Shown here: positions 25,218-35,177 of the stretch, one piece after another
How positions within the stretch are numbered: the first letter of the stretch is position 1
How the letters are laid out: each line of letters opens with the position of its first letter
Source of the DNA: an uncultured Eubacteriales bacterium
GTDB taxonomy: Bacteria > Bacillota > Clostridia > Saccharofermentanales > UBA5734
Direction: 5' to 3'
Length of the DNA: 36,315 nucleotides
NCBI GenBank assembly: GCA_903919045.1
Contig: CAIXGU010000009.1
Coordinates: 1 to 36,315, forward strand
The notes under the pieces: model-generated
What the model was told of the DNA's origin: nothing
Seen by the model: the letters and a program-made list of their open reading frames with translations, nothing else
The model's database searches: none
Position numbers and translations under genes: made by a program

Positions 25218-25898
25218 TCAGGGGGCCGCGGGAGCGCCGGCCGCCGGCGTCGCGCCGGAAGGCGCACCGGGCGGCGGGACCGTCACGATGCGATAGCGGA
25301 AGGCGTTGAGGATCGTGGTGCTCCCGTAGCGGATCGTCGCCGACTGCAGGCTCCCGTAGTTGAGATGCTGGTGGCCGTGGAAGAAGTACATCGGGTGGTA
25401 GCGGTCCAGCAGCTTCCGGAAGGCGGAGAACCCCTGGTGGCAGGGGTCCTTGGCGTCCCCGAGCCCCTCGGCGGGCGCATGCGTGACCAGGATGTCGAAG
25501 CCGCGGCTGCGGAAGAGCTGGAAGCGGAGCCTGGCGACGCGCCGGTCCATCTCCTGCTGCGAGTACTGGTAGTTCCCGAGATTGTAGCGGTGGCTGCCGC
25601 CGAATCCGAGGATGCGCAGGCCCTTCACGACGACCAGGCGGCCGTCGATGTCCTCGCAGCCCTCCGGCGGGTCGACCGCGTAGCGGCTGTCGTGGTTTCC
25701 CGGCACGTAGAGCAGCGGGGCGTGGATGCAGGTCACGAGGAACTCGAGGAAAGCCGCCTTCAGGTCCCCGCAGGCGATCACGAGGTCGATGTCCCGGAAT
25801 CGGTCCGCGTCGAAATGCTCCCAGAGGTACGGGTCCTCGACGTCCGACACCAGGAGGATGCGGACGGGCTTCCGCTCGGCGGCGGGCGCCTTCTTCAT
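25218..25898 (-). CDS. Metallophosphoesterase
   Basis: 226-residue calcineurin-like phosphoesterase. Conserved blocks are SDVED (18-22), CGD (43-45), GNHD (67-70), THAP (139-142) and GHQH (175-178). The first block normally reads DxH; here it is DxE, which I recall as usual in a clostridial subfamily. The C-terminal tail is Ala/Pro-rich. Substrate unknown (nucleotide, cyclic nucleotide or RNA ends are typical). Its ATG overlaps the stop of the ParB-like/Bmp gene as ATGA, so the two products are made in step. Confidence 0.88.
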   Translation of the reverse strand: MKKAPAAERKPVRILLVSDVEDPYLWEHFDADRFRDIDLVIACGDLKAAFLEFLVTCIHAPLLYVPGNHDSRYAVDPPEGCEDIDGRLVVVKGLRILGFGGSHRYNLGNYQYSQQEMDRRVARLRFQLFRSRGFDILVTHAPAEGLGDAKDPCHQGFSAFRKLLDRYHPMYFFHGHQHLNYGSLQSATIRYGSTTILNAFRYRIVTVPPPGAPSGATPAAGAPAAP

Positions 25899-27826
25899 CG
25901 CACCATGTCCTCCGCCTGGTCCTGCTCCATCGTCGGCGCCACGGTCCGGATGCCCTCGACGAACCAATCCATGGACGAGATGCCGTCGAAGCCCAGCGTC
26001 TGGCCTTCGTGCACGCGCAGGTCCCCTCGGCTGTCCCGCAGGGGGCCGGCGAACGGATGCAGCCGCCCTTCGACGAGCAGCGTGCGCATCGCCTCGACGA
26101 GCCTCCGGGTCGCCGGAGGGACCGCGTCCTCGTCGATGTCGAGATCGACGAGGCCGGAGCCCATCCCCCACCAGAACGCGGTCGCGGCGGACCGCACGAC
26201 GAACCGGTCGAGCGGGGTCGCCGGGGTATCCGTCAGCAGCTGCCGGAAGATCCGCTCGTAGAAGACGGCCCAGTGCCAGCGCGGGACGGCGACGCTCCGC
26301 AGGCTCGCGTCCATGGAGTCGGACCAGTCCGCCCCGGTCGCGAGGACGAGGCCGCGGCCGCGCAGCGTGCTCTGCCGCGATACGAGATCGGCGCCGGCCG
26401 CGAGGAGGGAACGCTCTTCCTCGAGCATCGACACGTGGGCGTTCGATTCCCAGTCGGTGGTCCATTGCACGAGGACCTCGGCTCGCGGATTCACCATCCG
26501 GGCGCCGATCGCGAACGCGTTGAGGCCGCTCACGACGTCCGGGACCGGCCAGGTCGCGACGGCGCCGAGACGACCGGTCCGCGACAGGCTGCCCGCGAGC
26601 ATCCCGACGAGGAAGCGCGGCTCGTACATCCGCCCGAAATAGGTCTCCACGTGGGCGTACGGGTGCGCCTCGGAGCAGCAGAAGAACCGGACCGACGGGC
26701 ACTCGATCGCGGCGTGGAGCGTGGCGGCGAGCATCGCGGGCGTGGTCGCGAAGATCGCGTCGAAGCCGCGGGCGGCGAACTCGCGGATCATCGGCGCGGC
26801 CTCGAGCCCCTCGGGGACGTCGTTCAGGCAGACGGTCTCGACGCGGTTCCCGACCGCGGCGGCGGCGGCGAGACGGCCTTCCTCGTGGGCCATCGTCCAC
26901 AGCGAGGCGGCCGGCGTCCGCGCGTACAGGAATCCGATGCGGAGCGGCCGCGGCGGACCCAGCAGGATGCCCAGGAAGCCGCCCGTCGCGGGGGCGGCCG
27001 GCGCCTCGGGCTCCTCGACGATGCGCTCGGCGTCCGCTGCCCGCCGGGTCTTGAGCTCCTCGCCGAGCTGCTTCAGGCGTTCGGCGACCTGTTCCTCGTC
27101 GTCGAGGTCCGGCATCCCGAACAGCCGGAGATAGGAGAGCAGGATGTCGCCCGACGAGTAGCGCGGGTCGATGCCGGCCGACGCGTGCAGGATCCTTCGG
27201 AACGCCTCGAAGTCCGCCGCCTCGAACCGGCGGAAGGCCTCCGCGGAGCAGTCCGGCAGGGCGGCGCAGAGGCGCTGGTGCAGCTCCTCGTACTTTCCGG
27301 GCGACGTGAGCTGGACCGCGTACATGCCGGTGCGGCGGTGGAACTCGAGGAATTCGTAGTAGAGGCGGATCTCCGGATCCGCGGCGTCGTATTCCGGCGT
27401 CCAGCGGACGATCTCGGCCCGCACGGTGTTGACGCGGAAGTACTTGAGGACGCTGACCCGCTTGTTCCCCTCCTCGGCGTAGAAGTCGCCGAGGTACTCG
27501 ACGAGCTTCACGGGGGTGTGGAACCCCTCCGCCATGTGCGCATCGCACAGCGCGCGCCACTTGGAGGCGAATTCGGACCGGTCGGGCATGACGGGCAGGA
27601 ACGACGGGGAGAACCCGACGGCCCGGGCCTCGGAGACGGTCCCGACGACCAGGCGCGAAGGCACGTCCCGGACGAAGAGGCTCTGGCGGGAGACGATCGT
27701 CCGGCCGCCGAGCCGCGTCTCGAGCGTCGGGAGCCGGCCGGTCCCGCCCTTGGCGCGGTCCGCGTCCCGGTCCTTGCGTCCCTTGCGGGAGGCATCCCTG
27801 TATTGGCCTTCCGTCTCCGTTCCCAT
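25895..27826 (-). CDS. ParB-like / Bmp (PnrA-type) fusion protein without signal peptide
   Basis: 643 residues. The N-terminal part (about 55-135) resembles a ParB/sulfiredoxin-like fold with EEGNKRVSVLKYF at 118-130. Residues about 295-625 resemble the Bmp/PnrA family of nucleoside-binding proteins (LRIGFLYARTPAASLW, GFDAIFATTPAM, YEPRFLVGMLAGSLSRTGRLG). Bmp proteins are usually secreted lipoproteins of ABC importers, but no signal peptide or lipobox exists here and no transporter genes adjoin, so a cytosolic sensor is inferred. No ribosome site precedes the ATG; a GACAAT -10-like hexamer (27833-27838) ends 6 bases before it, suggesting a leaderless mRNA. It is coupled to the metallophosphoesterase. 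Confidence 0.8.
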   Translation of the reverse strand: MGTETEGQYRDASRKGRKDRDADRAKGGTGRLPTLETRLGGRTIVSRQSLFVRDVPSRLVVGTVSEARAVGFSPSFLPVMPDRSEFASKWRALCDAHMAEGFHTPVKLVEYLGDFYAEEGNKRVSVLKYFRVNTVRAEIVRWTPEYDAADPEIRLYYEFLEFHRRTGMYAVQLTSPGKYEELHQRLCAALPDCSAEAFRRFEAADFEAFRRILHASAGIDPRYSSGDILLSYLRLFGMPDLDDEEQVAERLKQLGEELKTRRAADAERIVEEPEAPAAPATGGFLGILLGPPRPLRIGFLYARTPAASLWTMAHEEGRLAAAAAVGNRVETVCLNDVPEGLEAAPMIREFAARGFDAIFATTPAMLAATLHAAIECPSVRFFCCSEAHPYAHVETYFGRMYEPRFLVGMLAGSLSRTGRLGAVATWPVPDVVSGLNAFAIGARMVNPRAEVLVQWTTDWESNAHVSMLEEERSLLAAGADLVSRQSTLRGRGLVLATGADWSDSMDASLRSVAVPRWHWAVFYERIFRQLLTDTPATPLDRFVVRSAATAFWWGMGSGLVDLDIDEDAVPPATRRLVEAMRTLLVEGRLHPFAGPLRDSRGDLRVHEGQTLGFDGISSMDWFVEGIRTVAPTMEQDQAEDMVR

Positions 27827-28595: not shown

Positions 28596-30734
28596 TCAGC
28601 CGACGGTGACCTTGTACCCGGTCGCCACGTACCCCTGGTGCATCGCGCCCTTCGCCGCGTCGCTCCCCTCGCGCACCGCGCCGAGCACCGAGACCGCGTA
28701 GGTCCCGGCCGGCAGCGCCGTCGCGTCGATGCTGGCGAAGAACCGTCCGTTGAGGGCGCTCGTCGTCGGGAAGACATAGGCTCCGCGCGGGCTCCGGAGC
28801 ACGAGGTAGGTCCGGCCGAGGAGGTAGGCCCGGCCGTCGTACCGGATCGCGCCGTCGACGACCAGCCGGCCATGCTCGTCCACGAAGCGGGCGAAGCTCG
28901 CCTCGATCTTCCCGAAGTAGACGGGCGGCGCCTTCACGTCGGTCGTCGACGCAACCGTCGCCGCTTCGCCGAGCCGCACGCCGCGCACCGTGCCGAGCGG
29001 CGCCGGCGCCGCGAGCACCGCGGGGACCGCGACGCGTTCGGCCTGGTAGGTCTCGGCCGACTTCGAGAGGGCCGTCCCGCGGGCGGTTACCTCGAAGACG
29101 ACCGTCCCGTCCTCCGCGACCTCCACGACCCGCGACCACGTCTCGACGTCGCCCGTCACGCCCTGCAGGATGTCGTCGACAGGGACCCCGGCCACGCGCA
29201 GCTGCCCGCCGAAGTCGAGCAGGCGGTTCCCCGTCTCCGGGAGCCAGTCGGCGTCGCCGAGGAACGTCGCGTAGCAGTCCGAGCCCCGGGCCTCGCCGTA
29301 GGACCAGATCTGTCGCACGGTGCGGTCGGACAGGCGGATGCGGTACTGGACGCCGCGGGAGCGGTTCTCCGCCGCAGGCACGGCCTCGGCTTCCGTGAAG
29401 CCGCGCACCGGGCCGTTGTCGAGCAGCAGCAGGTCGATCGTATCGGGGTCGCCGTCGAGGTCGGGCAGCAGCTTGACGCCGTGCTGGCCCCAGGACCAGT
29501 CGAACTCCGCGCCGACCGGCTCGAGGAGCTTGTCCGCGAGTTCCGCCGACGCGCCGCCGTATCCTTCGTGCGGCCCGAGGATCCACTGGACGGCCCCGGT
29601 CTCCGCATCGATCGAGACGACCTGGCTCTGGATCGGGGAGGACACGATCAGGGCGCCGTGCTCCGGGTCGGCCGCGACGGCGTTCATGTGCATCCAGTCG
29701 ACGTTCGGGGCGTTCGCGATGCCGGGATCGAAATGGTCGTACGGATCGCGCGTCTCGTCGAGGATCGTCCGGAAATCGTAGGACCGCAGGATCCCCCCGG
29801 TCGCGGGGTCGAGGACCAGGGCGACGTCCTCGCGCGTGCCCGCCGCGGCCATGTCCCGCGGGTTGGAGGCGGCGAGCCAGGTGCCGTCCGGCGCCTCCGC
29901 GAGGCTGTGGTGCACGCCGTTCGGGACCTCGATCTCCCGGAGGACCTTCCCGAGTCCGTCGAATTCCCAGAGCGACGTCATGTTGTAGGGGATCTGCCGG
30001 TACTCGTCGCCCGTCGACAGCCAGTGCCCGTTCGCCAGCGGGACGACCGTCGTCCCGTGGGCCATCCGCGTCCGCGAGAGGTACCCGCGCACCTGTGCGT
30101 GCGCATCGATCCAGCACGTGTAGGAGTCCTCGAAGCAGGCGACCATCAGCGTCAGGCCCGGCTCCATCCGGTCGGGCATCGACACGATGCTCCCGTAGAC
30201 CTGGAAATCCGCCGGGAGCGGCTCGGTCGCGACGGTCAGCGCCACGGATCCGCCGTTCCCGTCCGAGAGGACGACCCGGTTCTCTCTGCCGGCGTAGAGG
30301 TAGAGCAGCTGGATCTCGTGGTGGGTGCGCGCGCCCTCGATGGAATAGGCGATCGTCGAGGCCGGATCGTCCCCTGGGACGGTGACGGAGATCGTCGTCG
30401 GCGCGTCGGTCTCGAAGATCGCGAGCGCGGTGCAGGGATTCATGCCGTAGGGGTCGACCACGACGTACGGGTCGTCGAACGCGCGCGGCGCGGCGCGGTA
30501 GTCGGCGAGGATCTCCTGCTCGACCGCCGCCTGCTCGTCGAGGAAGTCATCGGAAGGCACCTCGCGCAGCGCGGCGAGGGCGCTTGCCGTCGGACGCACG
30601 AGCGCGCCCGAGGCGAGGATCGCCGCGGCGGCGAGGACGAGGGCGAGCGGGAGGCCGACGGCGAGGAGGGTCATGCGCCGGCGCCCCGTTCCGGCCGTCC
30701 GCGAACGCCCTCCGGATCCGCCCGGCGCCATCAT
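28596..30734 (-). CDS. Arylsulfate sulfotransferase, membrane-anchored (copy 1)
   Basis: 712 residues. AssT enzymes transfer sulfate from a phenolic sulfate ester to another phenol without PAPS. A membrane anchor (about 21-43) precedes an N-terminal Ig-like domain (about 85-185; FDDPYVVVDPYGMNP). A beta-propeller follows, with VHHSLAEAPDGTWL (His275-276) and VDWMHMNAV, where His349 is the likely sulfate-carrying His (E. coli His436). About 120 extra residues at the C-terminus form another beta-rich domain. The start ATGATG overlaps the lipoprotein stop. It is the last of four overlapping genes and has a paralogue in the same operon. No clear terminator follows, only short GC hairpins. Confidence 0.87.
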   Translation of the reverse strand: MMAPGGSGGRSRTAGTGRRRMTLLAVGLPLALVLAAAAILASGALVRPTASALAALREVPSDDFLDEQAAVEQEILADYRAAPRAFDDPYVVVDPYGMNPCTALAIFETDAPTTISVTVPGDDPASTIAYSIEGARTHHEIQLLYLYAGRENRVVLSDGNGGSVALTVATEPLPADFQVYGSIVSMPDRMEPGLTLMVACFEDSYTCWIDAHAQVRGYLSRTRMAHGTTVVPLANGHWLSTGDEYRQIPYNMTSLWEFDGLGKVLREIEVPNGVHHSLAEAPDGTWLAASNPRDMAAAGTREDVALVLDPATGGILRSYDFRTILDETRDPYDHFDPGIANAPNVDWMHMNAVAADPEHGALIVSSPIQSQVVSIDAETGAVQWILGPHEGYGGASAELADKLLEPVGAEFDWSWGQHGVKLLPDLDGDPDTIDLLLLDNGPVRGFTEAEAVPAAENRSRGVQYRIRLSDRTVRQIWSYGEARGSDCYATFLGDADWLPETGNRLLDFGGQLRVAGVPVDDILQGVTGDVETWSRVVEVAEDGTVVFEVTARGTALSKSAETYQAERVAVPAVLAAPAPLGTVRGVRLGEAATVASTTDVKAPPVYFGKIEASFARFVDEHGRLVVDGAIRYDGRAYLLGRTYLVLRSPRGAYVFPTTSALNGRFFASIDATALPAGTYAVSVLGAVREGSDAAKGAMHQGYVATGYKVTVG

Positions 30735-31306
30735 CCCGCCCCCAGCCGCAGCCAGAGCCGCGTGCGGCCGTCCGAGCCCTCGTGCACCAGGTGCAGCGCG
30801 CCCTTCGCGGCGGACTCGGGGATCTCGAAGCAGACGAAGCCTTCGTTCCGTCCGAAGGTCAGGTCCGTCGACTTGACGCGCGGGAACCCGAAGCTCTCGA
30901 GGAACGTGTCATTGGCCATCCGGCTCCACGAGCCGCCCGCGCCGTCCTCGACGCGGACATCCTTCCAGGAGAAGGCGGGTGCGCCGGCCTGCTTCTTCTC
31001 GACGACGAGCTCGAGGAGCAGGAAGGTGCTGCCGGAGGCCGGCTTCTGCTCGATCGGGGTCTCGCTCGTGGTTCCGTCGTACTGGGTGTAGGCCCGCGTT
31101 CCCTTCAGGTCGGCCGCCGCTTCGGCGGACACCACCGCCAGGTTCCAGGCGGTCTCGGTGCGGACGTCGTCCGCACCGGACGGCGCGGCCGTCGGCGGAG
31201 GGCCGTCCCACGCGGTCGGCGTGGCGGTCGGGGCGGCGCACCCGCCGAGCAGCAGCGCGGCGGCGAGCGCGAGGATCGGGGCGGTCGGGGTCCTACGAGA
31301 TTCCAT
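30731..31306 (-). CDS. Lipoprotein with DUF4352-like domain
   Basis: 191 residues. Signal peptide with lipobox LLGGC (Cys23), then a Thr/Pro/Ala linker. A beta-sandwich follows: TFLLLELVVEKK near 93, DVRVEDGAGG, FVCFEIPESAAKG and a closing strand. The pattern fits the DUF4352/immunoprotective extracellular fold, though similarity is weak. It lies outside the membrane. GGAGGTGA precedes the ATG. The gene overlaps the upstream sulfotransferase by 14 bases and the downstream one by 4, so it is probably an accessory subunit of one or both enzymes. Confidence 0.75.
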   Translation of the reverse strand: MESRRTPTAPILALAAALLLGGCAAPTATPTAWDGPPPTAAPSGADDVRTETAWNLAVVSAEAAADLKGTRAYTQYDGTTSETPIEQKPASGSTFLLLELVVEKKQAGAPAFSWKDVRVEDGAGGSWSRMANDTFLESFGFPRVKSTDLTFGRNEGFVCFEIPESAAKGALHLVHEGSDGRTRLWLRLGAG

Positions 31307-33029
31307 GGGATGCCTTCACCTCCGCTGGGATCAGATCGAGCGCGGGCGTGCCGATGCCGAGGTCGTTCGACTCCGGGCCGTAGATGGGCAGCCGCTGCAC
31401 GCGATAGGTGTACACGTCGCCGTTCCTGCGTATGGAAAAGGCCGATGTCTGCCAGACGAGGCTTCCGTCCGGAGCCGTCTCGATCGCCGTCGGAGAGAAG
31501 AAGCCCGCGGCGTTGGGTACGAATCCGCCCAGGAGGTTCCCATTCGGCAGGAGGTCCGCGGACCCCCACTGCTCCGTATACAGGGTCCGCCCGTACTGCT
31601 TTCCGTACTGGCGGATCTGCCGGACCGTCCTCTTCCGCTCGTCGATCCGGTACTGGACGACGCGGGAATAGGCCTCGGCTCCGTTCAGGGGTCTCTGGTT
31701 GCCGTTGTCGAACAGCAGGAGGTCCAGCGTCGCCGGGTCCCCGTCCTGATCCGGCAGGATCTTCGGGTCGTGCTGGTTGTAGAACCATTCGAAGCCGTCG
31801 CCGACGGGCCGGAGCAGCAGGGATTCGTCCATCGGCTGCCACCCGTCGGGATTCGCCAGGATCCAGCGGACGTCGCCTGCGGGCCAGGAGAGGCAGACGA
31901 CGGCCGACTGGCTGCGGCCGGAGACGAGGATGTCCGACCGGCCCGGTACGAGCGAGATGGCGTTCAGGTGGAACCAGTCGACGGCCGACGCGTCCATCAA
32001 GCCGCGGCGGGCGCGGGTCAGGACGCGCTTCAGGTCCAGCGTCCGGACGACCTGTCCGGTCGCGGCGTCCATCTGGTAGACCAGGTCCGCCAGCGTCTCG
32101 CCCTGAGAGCCGGTCGCGAGCCAGGTGCCGTCCCCGAGGTCGGTCAGGTCGTGGTGGAGACCGTACGGCGCATAGAGGACCCGGAAGACGCGCCCGATGA
32201 GATCCGTCTCGTAGATCACCGCGTCGCCGGCGCTTTGGGCGGCCGCCATCAGGATCCGTCCGTTCGGGAGATACTCCGTCGAGGCCCCGTATTCGCCCTC
32301 GGTGTACCAGCGGATCACCCCGTGCGCATCCAGGGCGACCTTTCGGGAGCCCAGCAGGCAGTAGAACGTGAATCCCGGACGATAGGCCGCGGGCTGCGCG
32401 AGGCGGGTCCGGAGGACGATGTCCGCGAGATCGGGCGGAAGCGGTTCGGACTCGACCGTCAGCTCCTTCGTGGAGGTCCGGCCTTCCTGGTCGCGGGCGG
32501 TGAGCCGAACCGCCGTTCCCCTGCCCGCGAAGAGCCCGTGGACCGGCAGGAGGAAATCGGTCCGGTAGCCGTCGAAGGCGAAGTCGACGGATGCGAGCGG
32601 ATCCGCACCCTCCACCCGGATCGAGACCTGGAGGGGCACCGCGGACCGGAAGACGACGAGAGCCGTGAGCGGCGAGTACCCATAGGGATCCACGACGACG
32701 AGCGGGTCCTCGAACGCGTAGCGTCCGCTGTCCAGTTCCTGCAGGAGGCCTGCGTCGACCGACGCCTGATTGCGGAGGCGATCCACGGCCTGCGCGACGT
32801 AGCGCGGCGTCGGCGTGACCTCGGGCGCTTGGGTCGGCGCTTGGGTCGGCGCTTGCGTCGGCGTTACGGAGGCCTCCGCCGACGGCGTCGCGCTCGGGGA
32901 GACCGTCGGACCGAAGGCGCTCCCCGGCACGGAGAGTCCCCGGACGAACGAGACGACGAGCACCGCGGCCATGAGGGCCGTCGCGGCGACGCCGACGGCC
33001 GTCGTCCTCGCGATCGCGGCCCTAGCCAC
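31293..33029 (-). CDS. Arylsulfate sulfotransferase, membrane-anchored (copy 2)
   Basis: 578 residues from a GTG start. A membrane anchor (about 10-30), then a linker with three TQAP units, then the same order as copy 1: Ig-like domain (FEDPLVVVDPYGYSP), propeller with LHHDLTDLGDGTWL (His292-293) and VDWFHLNAI with catalytic His354. It lacks the C-terminal extension of copy 1. The GTG at 33029 has AAGG 8 bases upstream and overlaps the upstream stop as GTGGCTAG; a TTG at 33062 is less likely. Clear paralogy to copy 1 but low identity suggests different substrates. Confidence 0.85.
   Translation of the reverse strand: MARAAIARTTAVGVAATALMAAVLVVSFVRGLSVPGSAFGPTVSPSATPSAEASVTPTQAPTQAPTQAPEVTPTPRYVAQAVDRLRNQASVDAGLLQELDSGRYAFEDPLVVVDPYGYSPLTALVVFRSAVPLQVSIRVEGADPLASVDFAFDGYRTDFLLPVHGLFAGRGTAVRLTARDQEGRTSTKELTVESEPLPPDLADIVLRTRLAQPAAYRPGFTFYCLLGSRKVALDAHGVIRWYTEGEYGASTEYLPNGRILMAAAQSAGDAVIYETDLIGRVFRVLYAPYGLHHDLTDLGDGTWLATGSQGETLADLVYQMDAATGQVVRTLDLKRVLTRARRGLMDASAVDWFHLNAISLVPGRSDILVSGRSQSAVVCLSWPAGDVRWILANPDGWQPMDESLLLRPVGDGFEWFYNQHDPKILPDQDGDPATLDLLLFDNGNQRPLNGAEAYSRVVQYRIDERKRTVRQIRQYGKQYGRTLYTEQWGSADLLPNGNLLGGFVPNAAGFFSPTAIETAPDGSLVWQTSAFSIRRNGDVYTYRVQRLPIYGPESNDLGIGTPALDLIPAEVKASHGIS
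32827..32862 (-). repeat. 12-nt tandem repeat, three units
   Basis: Units GCTTGGGTCGGC (plus-strand reading) at 32827, 32839 and 32851, the third with one change. They encode the TQAP repeats of the sulfotransferase linker. Confidence 0.9.
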
Positions 33030-33330
33030 GGCGGAGCGCCTTGCGGAGCAGCGTCTCAGCAAGGATCAAGACGTAGGGGAATGCGAGCGCGCAGAGGGAT
33101 GCGAGCGCCGCGAACTTCGCGACCGCGTTCACTGTGGCGAAGAGCTCGGGGATCGCCGCGGCCCCGTGCCCCCGCAGGAAGGAAACAAGGACGACGAACG
33201 CGTCGATCGCGAAGGCGAAACCGAGGGTGCGGACGAGGAAGGCGACGGAGACCAGCGGCGTCCCCTTCTCGCGTCCGTACAGGATCGCGGCCAGCATGCC
33301 GGGAACGAAGACCAGGAGCGACTGGAGCAT
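33022..33330 (-). CDS. Small hydrophobic membrane protein, unknown
   Basis: 102 residues with about three membrane segments (roughly 3-17, 28-52, 62-94), a basic loop between the first two and the basic end LLRKALRRG. No family is recognised. GGAGGTGGAGG lies immediately before the ATG, and an extended -10 (33362-33370) precedes it. As first gene of the four-gene sulfotransferase operon it may be a membrane partner or scaffold; this is inference from gene order and overlap only. Confidence 0.7.
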   Translation of the reverse strand: MLQSLLVFVPGMLAAILYGREKGTPLVSVAFLVRTLGFAFAIDAFVVLVSFLRGHGAAAIPELFATVNAVAKFAALASLCALAFPYVLILAETLLRKALRRG

Positions 33331-33495: not shown

Positions 33496-34035
33496 TTACT
33501 TCGCGTTCGCGATCGCCTCCTGGGCGACGACGAGGAAGTCGGAGATGCCGATCGTGACCTTGCCGTTCAGGTCGGCTTCGTCGGAAACGAGGCCTTCGGT
33601 CTCGGAGGTCTTGGTCTTCATGCCCTTGATCTGGTCGGAGGTCTTGCCGACCATCCACTTCTCCAGGTCCGCGACCTGCTTGTACCACTCCTGGACGGCG
33701 TTGCCGTACTTGACCATGCCGTACTCGTCGCCGAGCTCGACCTTCGTCTTGCCTTCCGCGGTCAGGTCGGTGACGATCTTGCCAGCCGCGTCGAAGGAGG
33801 CGGTGATCTGCGCGTCGTCGATGCGGATGCCGACGACCTTGCCGTTGGCGTCCACGGCGGCGGCCGCGAACAGGGCGTCGGAGATGATCGTGCCGGCCTT
33901 GTCGGCCGTCGCGTCCGCGGAGCGGTCCGCGAAGGTGACCTTGTGGCCCAGGCCGAGCTTGGTGGCCCCGCCGGTCGCGGCGCAGCCCGCGAGGAGAAGG
34001 ACGACGAGGGTGACGATGAGGATCTTCTTGAACAT
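33496..34035 (-). CDS. PplA/FMN-binding-like lipoprotein
   Basis: 179 residues. Lipobox LLAGC (Cys18), then a single domain resembling the FMN-binding/pheromone cAD1-type lipoproteins: DALFAAAAVDANGKVVGIRID, TKVELGDEYGMVKYG, EWYKQVADLEKWMVGKT, and the ending GISDFLVVAQEAIANAK. In PplA, ApbE attaches FMN at a D-x-x-(S/T)-G-A-T site; here the matching place reads NGKVTIG, so only the Thr may remain and flavinylation is uncertain. AGGAGGG precedes the ATG by 5 bases. It has its own promoter and terminator, and lies 138 bases downstream of the NusG-II/Gx pair. Confidence 0.75.
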   Translation of the reverse strand: MFKKILIVTLVVLLLAGCAATGGATKLGLGHKVTFADRSADATADKAGTIISDALFAAAAVDANGKVVGIRIDDAQITASFDAAGKIVTDLTAEGKTKVELGDEYGMVKYGNAVQEWYKQVADLEKWMVGKTSDQIKGMKTKTSETEGLVSDEADLNGKVTIGISDFLVVAQEAIANAK

Positions 34036-34099
34036 GATTCCCTCCTGTGTGCCTTGATTCGTTCGTCGCCTCTGGCAAAGGGCGACGCCAATGGATGCG

Positions 34100-34108
34100 A
34101 TTATATCA
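34100..34108 (-). promoter_or_regulatory. Extended -10 of the PplA-like lipoprotein gene
   Basis: TGA-TATAAT on the minus strand, a perfect extended -10 in the most AT-rich patch of the window. The start point is about 60 bases before the ATG. Confidence 0.65.
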
Positions 34109-34173
34109 TAATCGTAACTAGCGGTACCAGTATCGCGCTTGGCACTTTCTTGCCGATTTCCGGCACGATTCGG

Positions 34174-34746
34174 CTAGATGCGCTTCAGGCGGCGCAGGAC
34201 GGGAACGACGGCGGCGGCCGTCGGGATGCCGGTGAGAAGTCCCACGAGCAGCAGCATCGGAAGGTAGGTGGTCGCGAGCGACAGGTCCCGCAGGACGAGG
34301 CAGGCCGCGGCGACCTGCCCTACGTTGTGCGCGGCCGCGCCGCCCATGCTGACGCCGTACGGCGAGAACAGACGGTCGCCGCCGAGCCGGAGCAGGGCCA
34401 TCGCCAGCAGCGCGAGCGCCCCGCCGGACAGGGAGAACAGCAGCGACGACGGCCCGAGGAACAGCGCCGTGAGCAGGCATCGGACGAGCAGGACCGCGGA
34501 GGCGTCGAAGAAGGAGAGCCGGTAGAGCGCGAACAGGGTGACGACGTTCGCGAGTCCCAGCTTGACGCCGGGGACGGGGATCAGCAGCTCGATCGGGATC
34601 CAGCGCTCGACGATCGACAGGACCACGGCGAGCGACACCAGCACGCCGTCCACGGCCAGGCGCCGGACGTAGGCCGACACCGCGTGGGGGTGTTCCATCG
34701 CGGTCGAGCCGCGCTCGCGTCCGGCGGTCTTCCCGTCGCGGCTCAT
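34174..34746 (-). CDS. Gx transporter family protein (heptaprenyl diphosphate synthase component I; EetB-like)
   Basis: 190-residue membrane protein with about five to six helices. The family signature VPGVKLGLANVVTLFALY (about 58-75) is present, followed by GGAAAHNVGQVAAACLVL. Related to ECF-type substrate-binding subunits; the Listeria homologue EetB belongs to the flavin-based extracellular electron transfer locus. Its ATG overlaps the NusG-II stop as ATGA, with GGTGA upstream. Pairing with a NusG-II gene and a nearby PplA-like lipoprotein supports the comparison. Ndh2, ApbE and quinone genes are not in this window. Confidence 0.87.
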   Translation of the reverse strand: MSRDGKTAGRERGSTAMEHPHAVSAYVRRLAVDGVLVSLAVVLSIVERWIPIELLIPVPGVKLGLANVVTLFALYRLSFFDASAVLLVRCLLTALFLGPSSLLFSLSGGALALLAMALLRLGGDRLFSPYGVSMGGAAAHNVGQVAAACLVLRDLSLATTYLPMLLLVGLLTGIPTAAAVVPVLRRLKRI

Positions 34747-35177
34747 CGGTTCACCACGTCCACGTCGCCGGCGTCCCCGAGGACGCGGAGCAGCAGGTGG
34801 CCCGGCACGCAGGCGGCGACCTGCGGGGCGTGCGAGATCCAGCCCGTGCGCACGCAGACCTTGTCGGGGCAGTCGGCCGCCTCGAAGCGGATCGCGCCGC
34901 CGCCGGTCCGGACCGTGTAGTGGTACCCTTCGGATTCGAACGCATACGTCGCGTCCTTCGCGAGGTCGGCGGCCGTGAACGTCCGCAGGACCGTCCCGTC
35001 GCGCACGACGGCGGCGCCGCCCGCGCGCACGGACGAGAGGGAGGACGCCGTCCAGAGGGCGACCGCCAGCGCGACGGCGGCCAGCACGACGAGCAGGTCG
35101 CCGGGCCGGACCTCCTTGCGGAGCCGTCCCGGTTCCCTGCGGACGCGCTCGGGGTCCCTGCGGGCGCGGGCGTTCAA
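34743..35177 (-). CDS. NusG domain II-containing membrane protein (EetA-like)
   Basis: 144 residues. A basic N-terminus and one membrane helix (about 28-50) are followed by an extracellular NusG_II domain with the diagnostic ADCPDKVCVRTGWIS and QVAACVPGHLLLRV. The two conserved Cys regions may form a disulfide or hold a group. The start is probably TTG at 35177, overlapping the GGDEF-protein stop as TTGA; no ATG or GTG is available ahead of the membrane helix. The gene order NusG-II then Gx transporter is that of Listeria eetA-eetB. Confidence 0.83.
   Translation of the reverse strand: MNARARRDPERVRREPGRLRKEVRPGDLLVVLAAVALAVALWTASSLSSVRAGGAAVVRDGTVLRTFTAADLAKDATYAFESEGYHYTVRTGGGAIRFEAADCPDKVCVRTGWISHAPQVAACVPGHLLLRVLGDAGDVDVVNR

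Follow-up and report, generated by a model that had tools for sequence, protein, structure and literature searches.

Four overlapping genes on the minus strand (33330-28596) of the window, that is, the whole 36,315-nt stretch of DNA analysed here from an uncultured Eubacteriales bacterium, encode in this order a three-helix membrane protein (TM3), an arylsulfate sulfotransferase (AssT2), a DUF4352-like lipoprotein and a second arylsulfate sulfotransferase (AssT1). On balance, the four genes probably constitute a cell-surface sulfation unit, in which a canonical AssT2 and an AssT1 with an altered pocket would act independently of PAPS together with the lipoprotein and TM3. The features of this cassette are as follows.

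33022..33330, minus strand: TM3, the first cassette gene, an ORF of 102 aa for a three-helix membrane protein
31293..33062, minus strand: AssT2, a predicted canonical exported arylsulfate sulfotransferase (PF05935, 4.6e-58; PF17425, 4.9e-9)
31914..31916, minus strand: AssT2 Arg383 (TTG numbering), counterpart of E. coli Arg374 by alignment
31770..31772, minus strand: AssT2 His431 (TTG numbering), counterpart of the catalytic E. coli His436 by alignment
30731..31306, minus strand: DUF4352-like lipoprotein, an ORF of 191 aa with the lipobox LLGGC followed by a beta-sandwich
28596..30734, minus strand: AssT1, a predicted exported AssT, an ORF of 712 aa (PF05935, 1.4e-64)
29634..29636, minus strand: AssT1 Pro367 (motif VSSPIQS) at the E. 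coli Arg374 position by alignment
29481..29483, minus strand: AssT1 His418, counterpart of the catalytic E. coli His436 by alignment
28599..28913, minus strand: C-terminal beta-sandwich of AssT1 (about aa 608-712), from the secondary structure of the model

The ORFs, coordinates and overlaps agree with the four overlapping genes of the preliminary description. AssT2 may start at TTG 33062 or at GTG 33029; the latter, which gives a protein of 578 aa, is the more plausible start, and the former is retained as an alternative. TM3 and AssT2 overlap by 8 nt with the GTG start (GTGGCTAG, including the TM3 stop) and by 41 nt with the TTG start, AssT2 and the lipoprotein gene by 14 nt, and the lipoprotein gene and AssT1 by 4 nt (ATGA). 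Overlaps of this kind typically mark translationally coupled genes. Three hydrophobic segments in TM3 (aa 1-19, 31-49 and 73-91) agree with the three-helix membrane protein recognized earlier; assignment of TM3 to the CD20 family was rejected (16.5 bits against a cut-off of 27.9). Neither AssT1 nor AssT2 has a lipobox; in both, a single hydrophobic segment lies at the N-terminus. The cassette products are predicted to be located at the cell surface, facing outward. The genes upstream of TM3 differ between the window and the genome of the sister species, and the cassette is therefore taken to end at TM3. Downstream, a convergent nitroreductase-like gene is kept in the sister species; it lies on the opposite strand and was not counted as part of the cassette.

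Two other parts of the window were inspected by eye. Upstream of the cassette (33496-35177, minus strand), a lipoprotein, an Hpre_diP_synt_I-like membrane protein and a NusG_II-like protein resemble flavin/electron-transfer sets; these genes are not beside the cassette in the sister species. The protein encoded at 25895-27800 (minus strand), kept in the sister species at 70% identity, resembles BMP/PnrA-type binding proteins in its C-terminal part and has no obvious signal peptide.

The same four genes occur in the same order in the sister species (G001, an AlinenLipids Clostridiales MAG), the only other genome of the genus that was compared, with identities of 68% for AssT1, 63% for the lipoprotein, 45% for AssT2 and 40% for TM3, and with the same downstream neighbours. 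All four genes, with the lipoprotein gene first, are also present in SZUA-373, a MAG from a different order of the Clostridia than the window; neither of the two order-wide searches listed the genome found by the other. When SZUA-373 was left out of the profiles, they still recovered its lipoprotein (5.7e-34), TM3 (1.1e-9, with a profile from the window and G001 alone) and AssT1 (7e-237), so these genes are homologues rather than look-alikes. The neighbourhood analysis proposed in the preliminary description has thus yielded the same set in two other genomes, and the arrangement is not due to chance. AssT is uncommon in the order of the window, with five of 188 genomes above the cut-off, and the full cassette is present in three genomes only, all of them MAGs or unnamed assemblies; a fourth was not found in viral contigs (no AssT1), in plasmids (diverged AssTs only) or in the families of G188 and G449.

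A related arrangement is found within a single protein. In G698, one ORF of 1664 aa with a signal-like N-terminus comprises a lipoprotein-type domain (aa 39-161), two AssT domains, an InlB-like repeat and three SLH domains. Since Arg is kept at the position changed in AssT1, the second AssT domain is not a proven AssT1. The genes upstream of the fusion gene (L063, 242-5498) look by eye like sugar-nucleotide, GtrA-like and glycosyltransferase-like genes, possibly a surface glycan locus, which hints at a surface glycan as acceptor. The recurrence of the set in a distant Clostridia lineage and the joining of two AssT domains with the lipoprotein-type domain in G698 suggest that the cassette products probably work together.

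Linkage was also seen in G449 and G868. The lipoprotein gene of G449 overlaps a gene for an AssT2-like enzyme, with another AssT on the opposite strand at a distance of about 4 kb; that of G868 is directly upstream of an AssT gene. In a sample of 391 genomes of the class, AssT was present without the lipoprotein in G030, G644, G719, G741 and G902, and in Enterococcus and Aerococcus the AssT genes have different neighbours. The second condition that would speak against the preliminary description, usual occurrence of each AssT without the other three genes, applies to AssT at large (Enterococcus, Aerococcus, G030, G644 and G719, among others) but not to the AssT1 lineage, which is inside the cassette in all three of its occurrences. 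Since the AssT genes of other groups are frequently solitary, the coupling belongs to the AssT subfamily of the cassette. Two further AssT neighbourhoods were observed. In G209, two neighbouring AssT genes, both very diverged, lie on one strand with no lipoprotein or TM3 (L065, contig C77, 80-3576); in a Rhodothermales MAG, a lipoprotein AssT precedes a diverged AssT-related protein with Ser at the Arg374 position (L031, 9821-13135).

The cassette lipoprotein has no Pfam match, PF11611 included, in a Pfam scan of the cassette products. Its relative in G868, however, matches PF11611 with 27.3 bits (cut-off 25.9), and its structural model (overall pLDDT 70, with values above 75 for most of the core) was matched by Foldseek to the DUF4352-type proteins YxkC (9a4z, 1.7e-6) and YjhA (3cfu, 3.4e-3). 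Since its weak relatives in other genomes are clear DUF4352 proteins, the label DUF4352-like given to it earlier is right by descent, and the lipobox agrees with its designation as a lipoprotein. It shares a predicted fold with YxkC and YjhA but has diverged past Pfam detection, and its strong homologues were found beside AssT only. Among the 391 class genomes, strong matches to the family (1e-50 or better) are confined to the window, G868 and G698, all beside AssT, and the next best match is 7e-7; the domains of these three are rows of the search model, so that the informative result is the lack of any further strong match.

The two sulfotransferases are paralogues, as first described. They match PF05935 (Arylsulfotrans) with 218.9 and 197.5 bits (cut-off 24.2) and the N-domain PF17425 far over its cut-off, and share about 40% identity over 423 aa. 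Structure prediction was performed on single chains and, among the AssTs, covers AssT1. The AlphaFold2 model of AssT1, from a nine-row alignment (pLDDT 74, pTM 0.74), has an N-terminal membrane helix (24-42), an N-terminal beta-sandwich, a beta-propeller and an additional C-terminal beta-sandwich. The extra C-terminal domain of the preliminary description is thereby seen in the model, and a similar tail is present in relatives from G030 and G038. The best PDB match of the model is E. coli AssT (3elq, 1.6e-24, TM 0.64 by target), followed by Cpz4 (9kf6, 3.2e-13). By sequence and by predicted fold, AssT1 is a member of the family with an altered pocket.

The active site was compared in an alignment of 25 domains, three of them AssT1. 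Pairwise alignments with PDB sequences had hinted at loss of the catalytic His; the profile alignment removed this hint by setting the QH motif on E. coli His436. The equivalents of the sulfuryl-binding residues His252, His356 and Asn358 and of the catalytic His436 are kept in all 25 domains, and the loss of the catalytic His in homologues, which would speak against the preliminary description, did not appear. AssT2 retains the complete H, H, N, R, H set, whereas the Arg374 position is occupied by Pro in all three AssT1 orthologues, within the invariant replacement motif SSPIQS. Among the 22 other domains, 21 have Arg at this position, and the remaining one, the distant protein from Rhodothermales, has Ser. 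Neither AssT1 nor AssT2 retains Thr501. Published ASTs are stated to share the active-site residues, Arg374 among them (PMC13426309), and AssT1, as aligned here, departs from this conservation at one fixed position. The change in its sulfuryl pocket suggests that AssT1 uses a different donor or acceptor.

A search for APS kinase in the 94% complete genome found none, and the same search was positive in 11 of 14 control genomes, suggesting that the sulfuryl donor is probably scavenged environmental aryl sulfate rather than PAPS-derived. Contig C195 (L092) carries a radical-SAM gene (6-1487) that by eye resembles anaerobic sulfatase-maturating enzymes, followed by a gene (1498-2931) whose product is the one PF00884 protein detected in the genome, a cytosolic sulfatase carrying a signature of the Cys type (CAASR). 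Judging from the presence of this sulfatase/maturase-like pair and the lack of a detectable APS kinase, the organism seems to make no PAPS yet to use organosulfates, and this would suit an extracellular enzyme fed by environmental aryl sulfates.

In the proposed sulfation unit, AssT2 would take a sulfuryl group from an extracellular aryl sulfate onto the histidine equivalent to E. coli His436 and pass it to an acceptor. AssT1, tethered beside AssT2 with the same fold and histidines but a changed pocket, would use another donor or acceptor, while the DUF4352-like lipoprotein and TM3 may keep both enzymes at the membrane or offer the acceptor to them. The earlier suggestion of host phenols as acceptors is without support: the sister genome is an AlinenLipids MAG, with no sign of an animal host.

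Several characterized systems resemble parts of this unit. E. coli CFT073 AssT (3elq) shares with the cassette AssTs the His/His/Asn/His set, export, which is predicted here, and the fold, as modelled for AssT1. However, it is a single enzyme with the disulfide-forming partners DsbL/DsbI, whereas the cassette encodes two enzymes, predicted to be membrane-tethered, with a DUF4352-like lipoprotein and TM3, and AssT1 lacks the equivalent of its Arg374; no DsbL/DsbI-type thiol oxidase was detected among the four cassette products by Pfam scan. Cpz4 of caprazamycin biosynthesis has the same broad fold as the AssT1 model, is PAPS-independent and offers a model for a relay, but belongs to an antibiotic pathway, unlike the cassette AssTs. 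The caprazamycin pathway uses an aryl sulfate shuttle, and we know of no twin enzyme, lipoprotein or TM3 for Cpz4. Cytosolic PAPS-dependent loading of an aryl carrier, as in a shuttle of this type, is not indicated here, as no APS kinase was detected in the 94% complete genome. The AST of Desulfitobacterium hafniense and other Cluster II ASTs are likewise PAPS-independent enzymes of Firmicutes; by published description they are single enzymes with conserved active-site residues (PMC13426309), unlike AssT1. Sutterella wadsworthensis also has many AssT paralogues in one genome, but its 17 AssT genes are reported as typically not lying in operons, unlike those of the cassette, and all 17 products as having Arg374, unlike AssT1 (PMC10932419).

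A serious alternative, though one to which we give less than even weight, is that two independent AssTs of differing specificity share the operon and the lipoprotein without forming a complex or exchanging products. The fixed difference in one pocket residue between AssT1 and AssT2 would fit this explanation, as would the several unlinked AssTs of some genomes (G868 and G902); however, the G698 fusion and retention across orders suggest a tighter coupling. It is also conceivable, if rather unlikely, that AssT1 is a subunit with little or no activity of its own, serving to bind substrate or as a scaffold for AssT2. The Arg374 equivalent is indeed lost in every AssT1 orthologue alongside the invariant SSPIQS, and the extra beta-sandwich could bind glycan or protein, but retention of all four His and Asn equivalents is unusual for a dead enzyme, and the AssT1-specific invariant basic residues Arg246 and His389 might compensate for the loss.

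The preliminary description had proposed an extracellular sulfate-relay complex. Its conserved unit of two diverged, exported AssTs with accessory proteins stands, backed by the G698 fusion, while the relay itself is a guess. We regard as improbable a relay in which one AssT would load the sulfuryl group onto a small phenol or glycan intermediate, from which the other would move it to the final acceptor. In its favour, AssT1 was found paired with AssT2 every time, the G698 chain holds two AssT domains, and Foldseek matched the AssT1 model to Cpz4, which a review describes as an enzyme of the AST type within an antibiotic pathway (PMC13426309). Against it, the cassette has neither an intermediate nor a carrier protein nor a biosynthetic gene.

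In the maximum-likelihood tree, the three AssT1 proteins form a 100/100 clade, and the AssT2 proteins of the window, G001 and SZUA-373 form a 99/97 clade with a protein encoded on contig C67; outside the latter clade, G449_a joins next (100/97), followed by domain 1 of the G698 protein (95/90). The C67 protein (L025, 364-2130) is the third and last PF05935 protein of the whole genome besides AssT1 and AssT2, a lipoprotein-form AssT2 relative with 45% identity to AssT2; its gene lies on a short contig with no cassette around it. Downstream of it is a gene for a lipoprotein of 315 aa, whose similarity to that of the cassette is weak at most. Because AssT1 and AssT2 form separate supported clades, the pair is old and was inherited or transferred together. 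An ordinary recent tandem duplication with no functional meaning is therefore highly improbable: tandem or nearby AssT pairs are known also in G209, G449 and Rhodothermales, but the tree and the conserved set, with two old clades each kept in place across two orders, contradict it.

According to a 2026 review, the natural acceptors of most bacterial ASTs are unknown and their physiological roles poorly understood (PMC13426309). The cassette, with its fixed membrane partners and a surface-anchored fusion, offers a concrete system for the acceptor and two-enzyme question, and the fixed Arg-to-Pro change is a natural probe of the role of the active-site arginine. Improbable as well is a dedicated, membrane-tethered two-enzyme machine outside the cell, in which the canonical AssT and the lineage-specific Arg-to-Pro AssT would exchange one sulfuryl group or jointly build a sulfated surface glycan, with the DUF4352 protein as adaptor. 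If such a machine exists, a bacterium without PAPS could decorate its own surface with scavenged sulfate.
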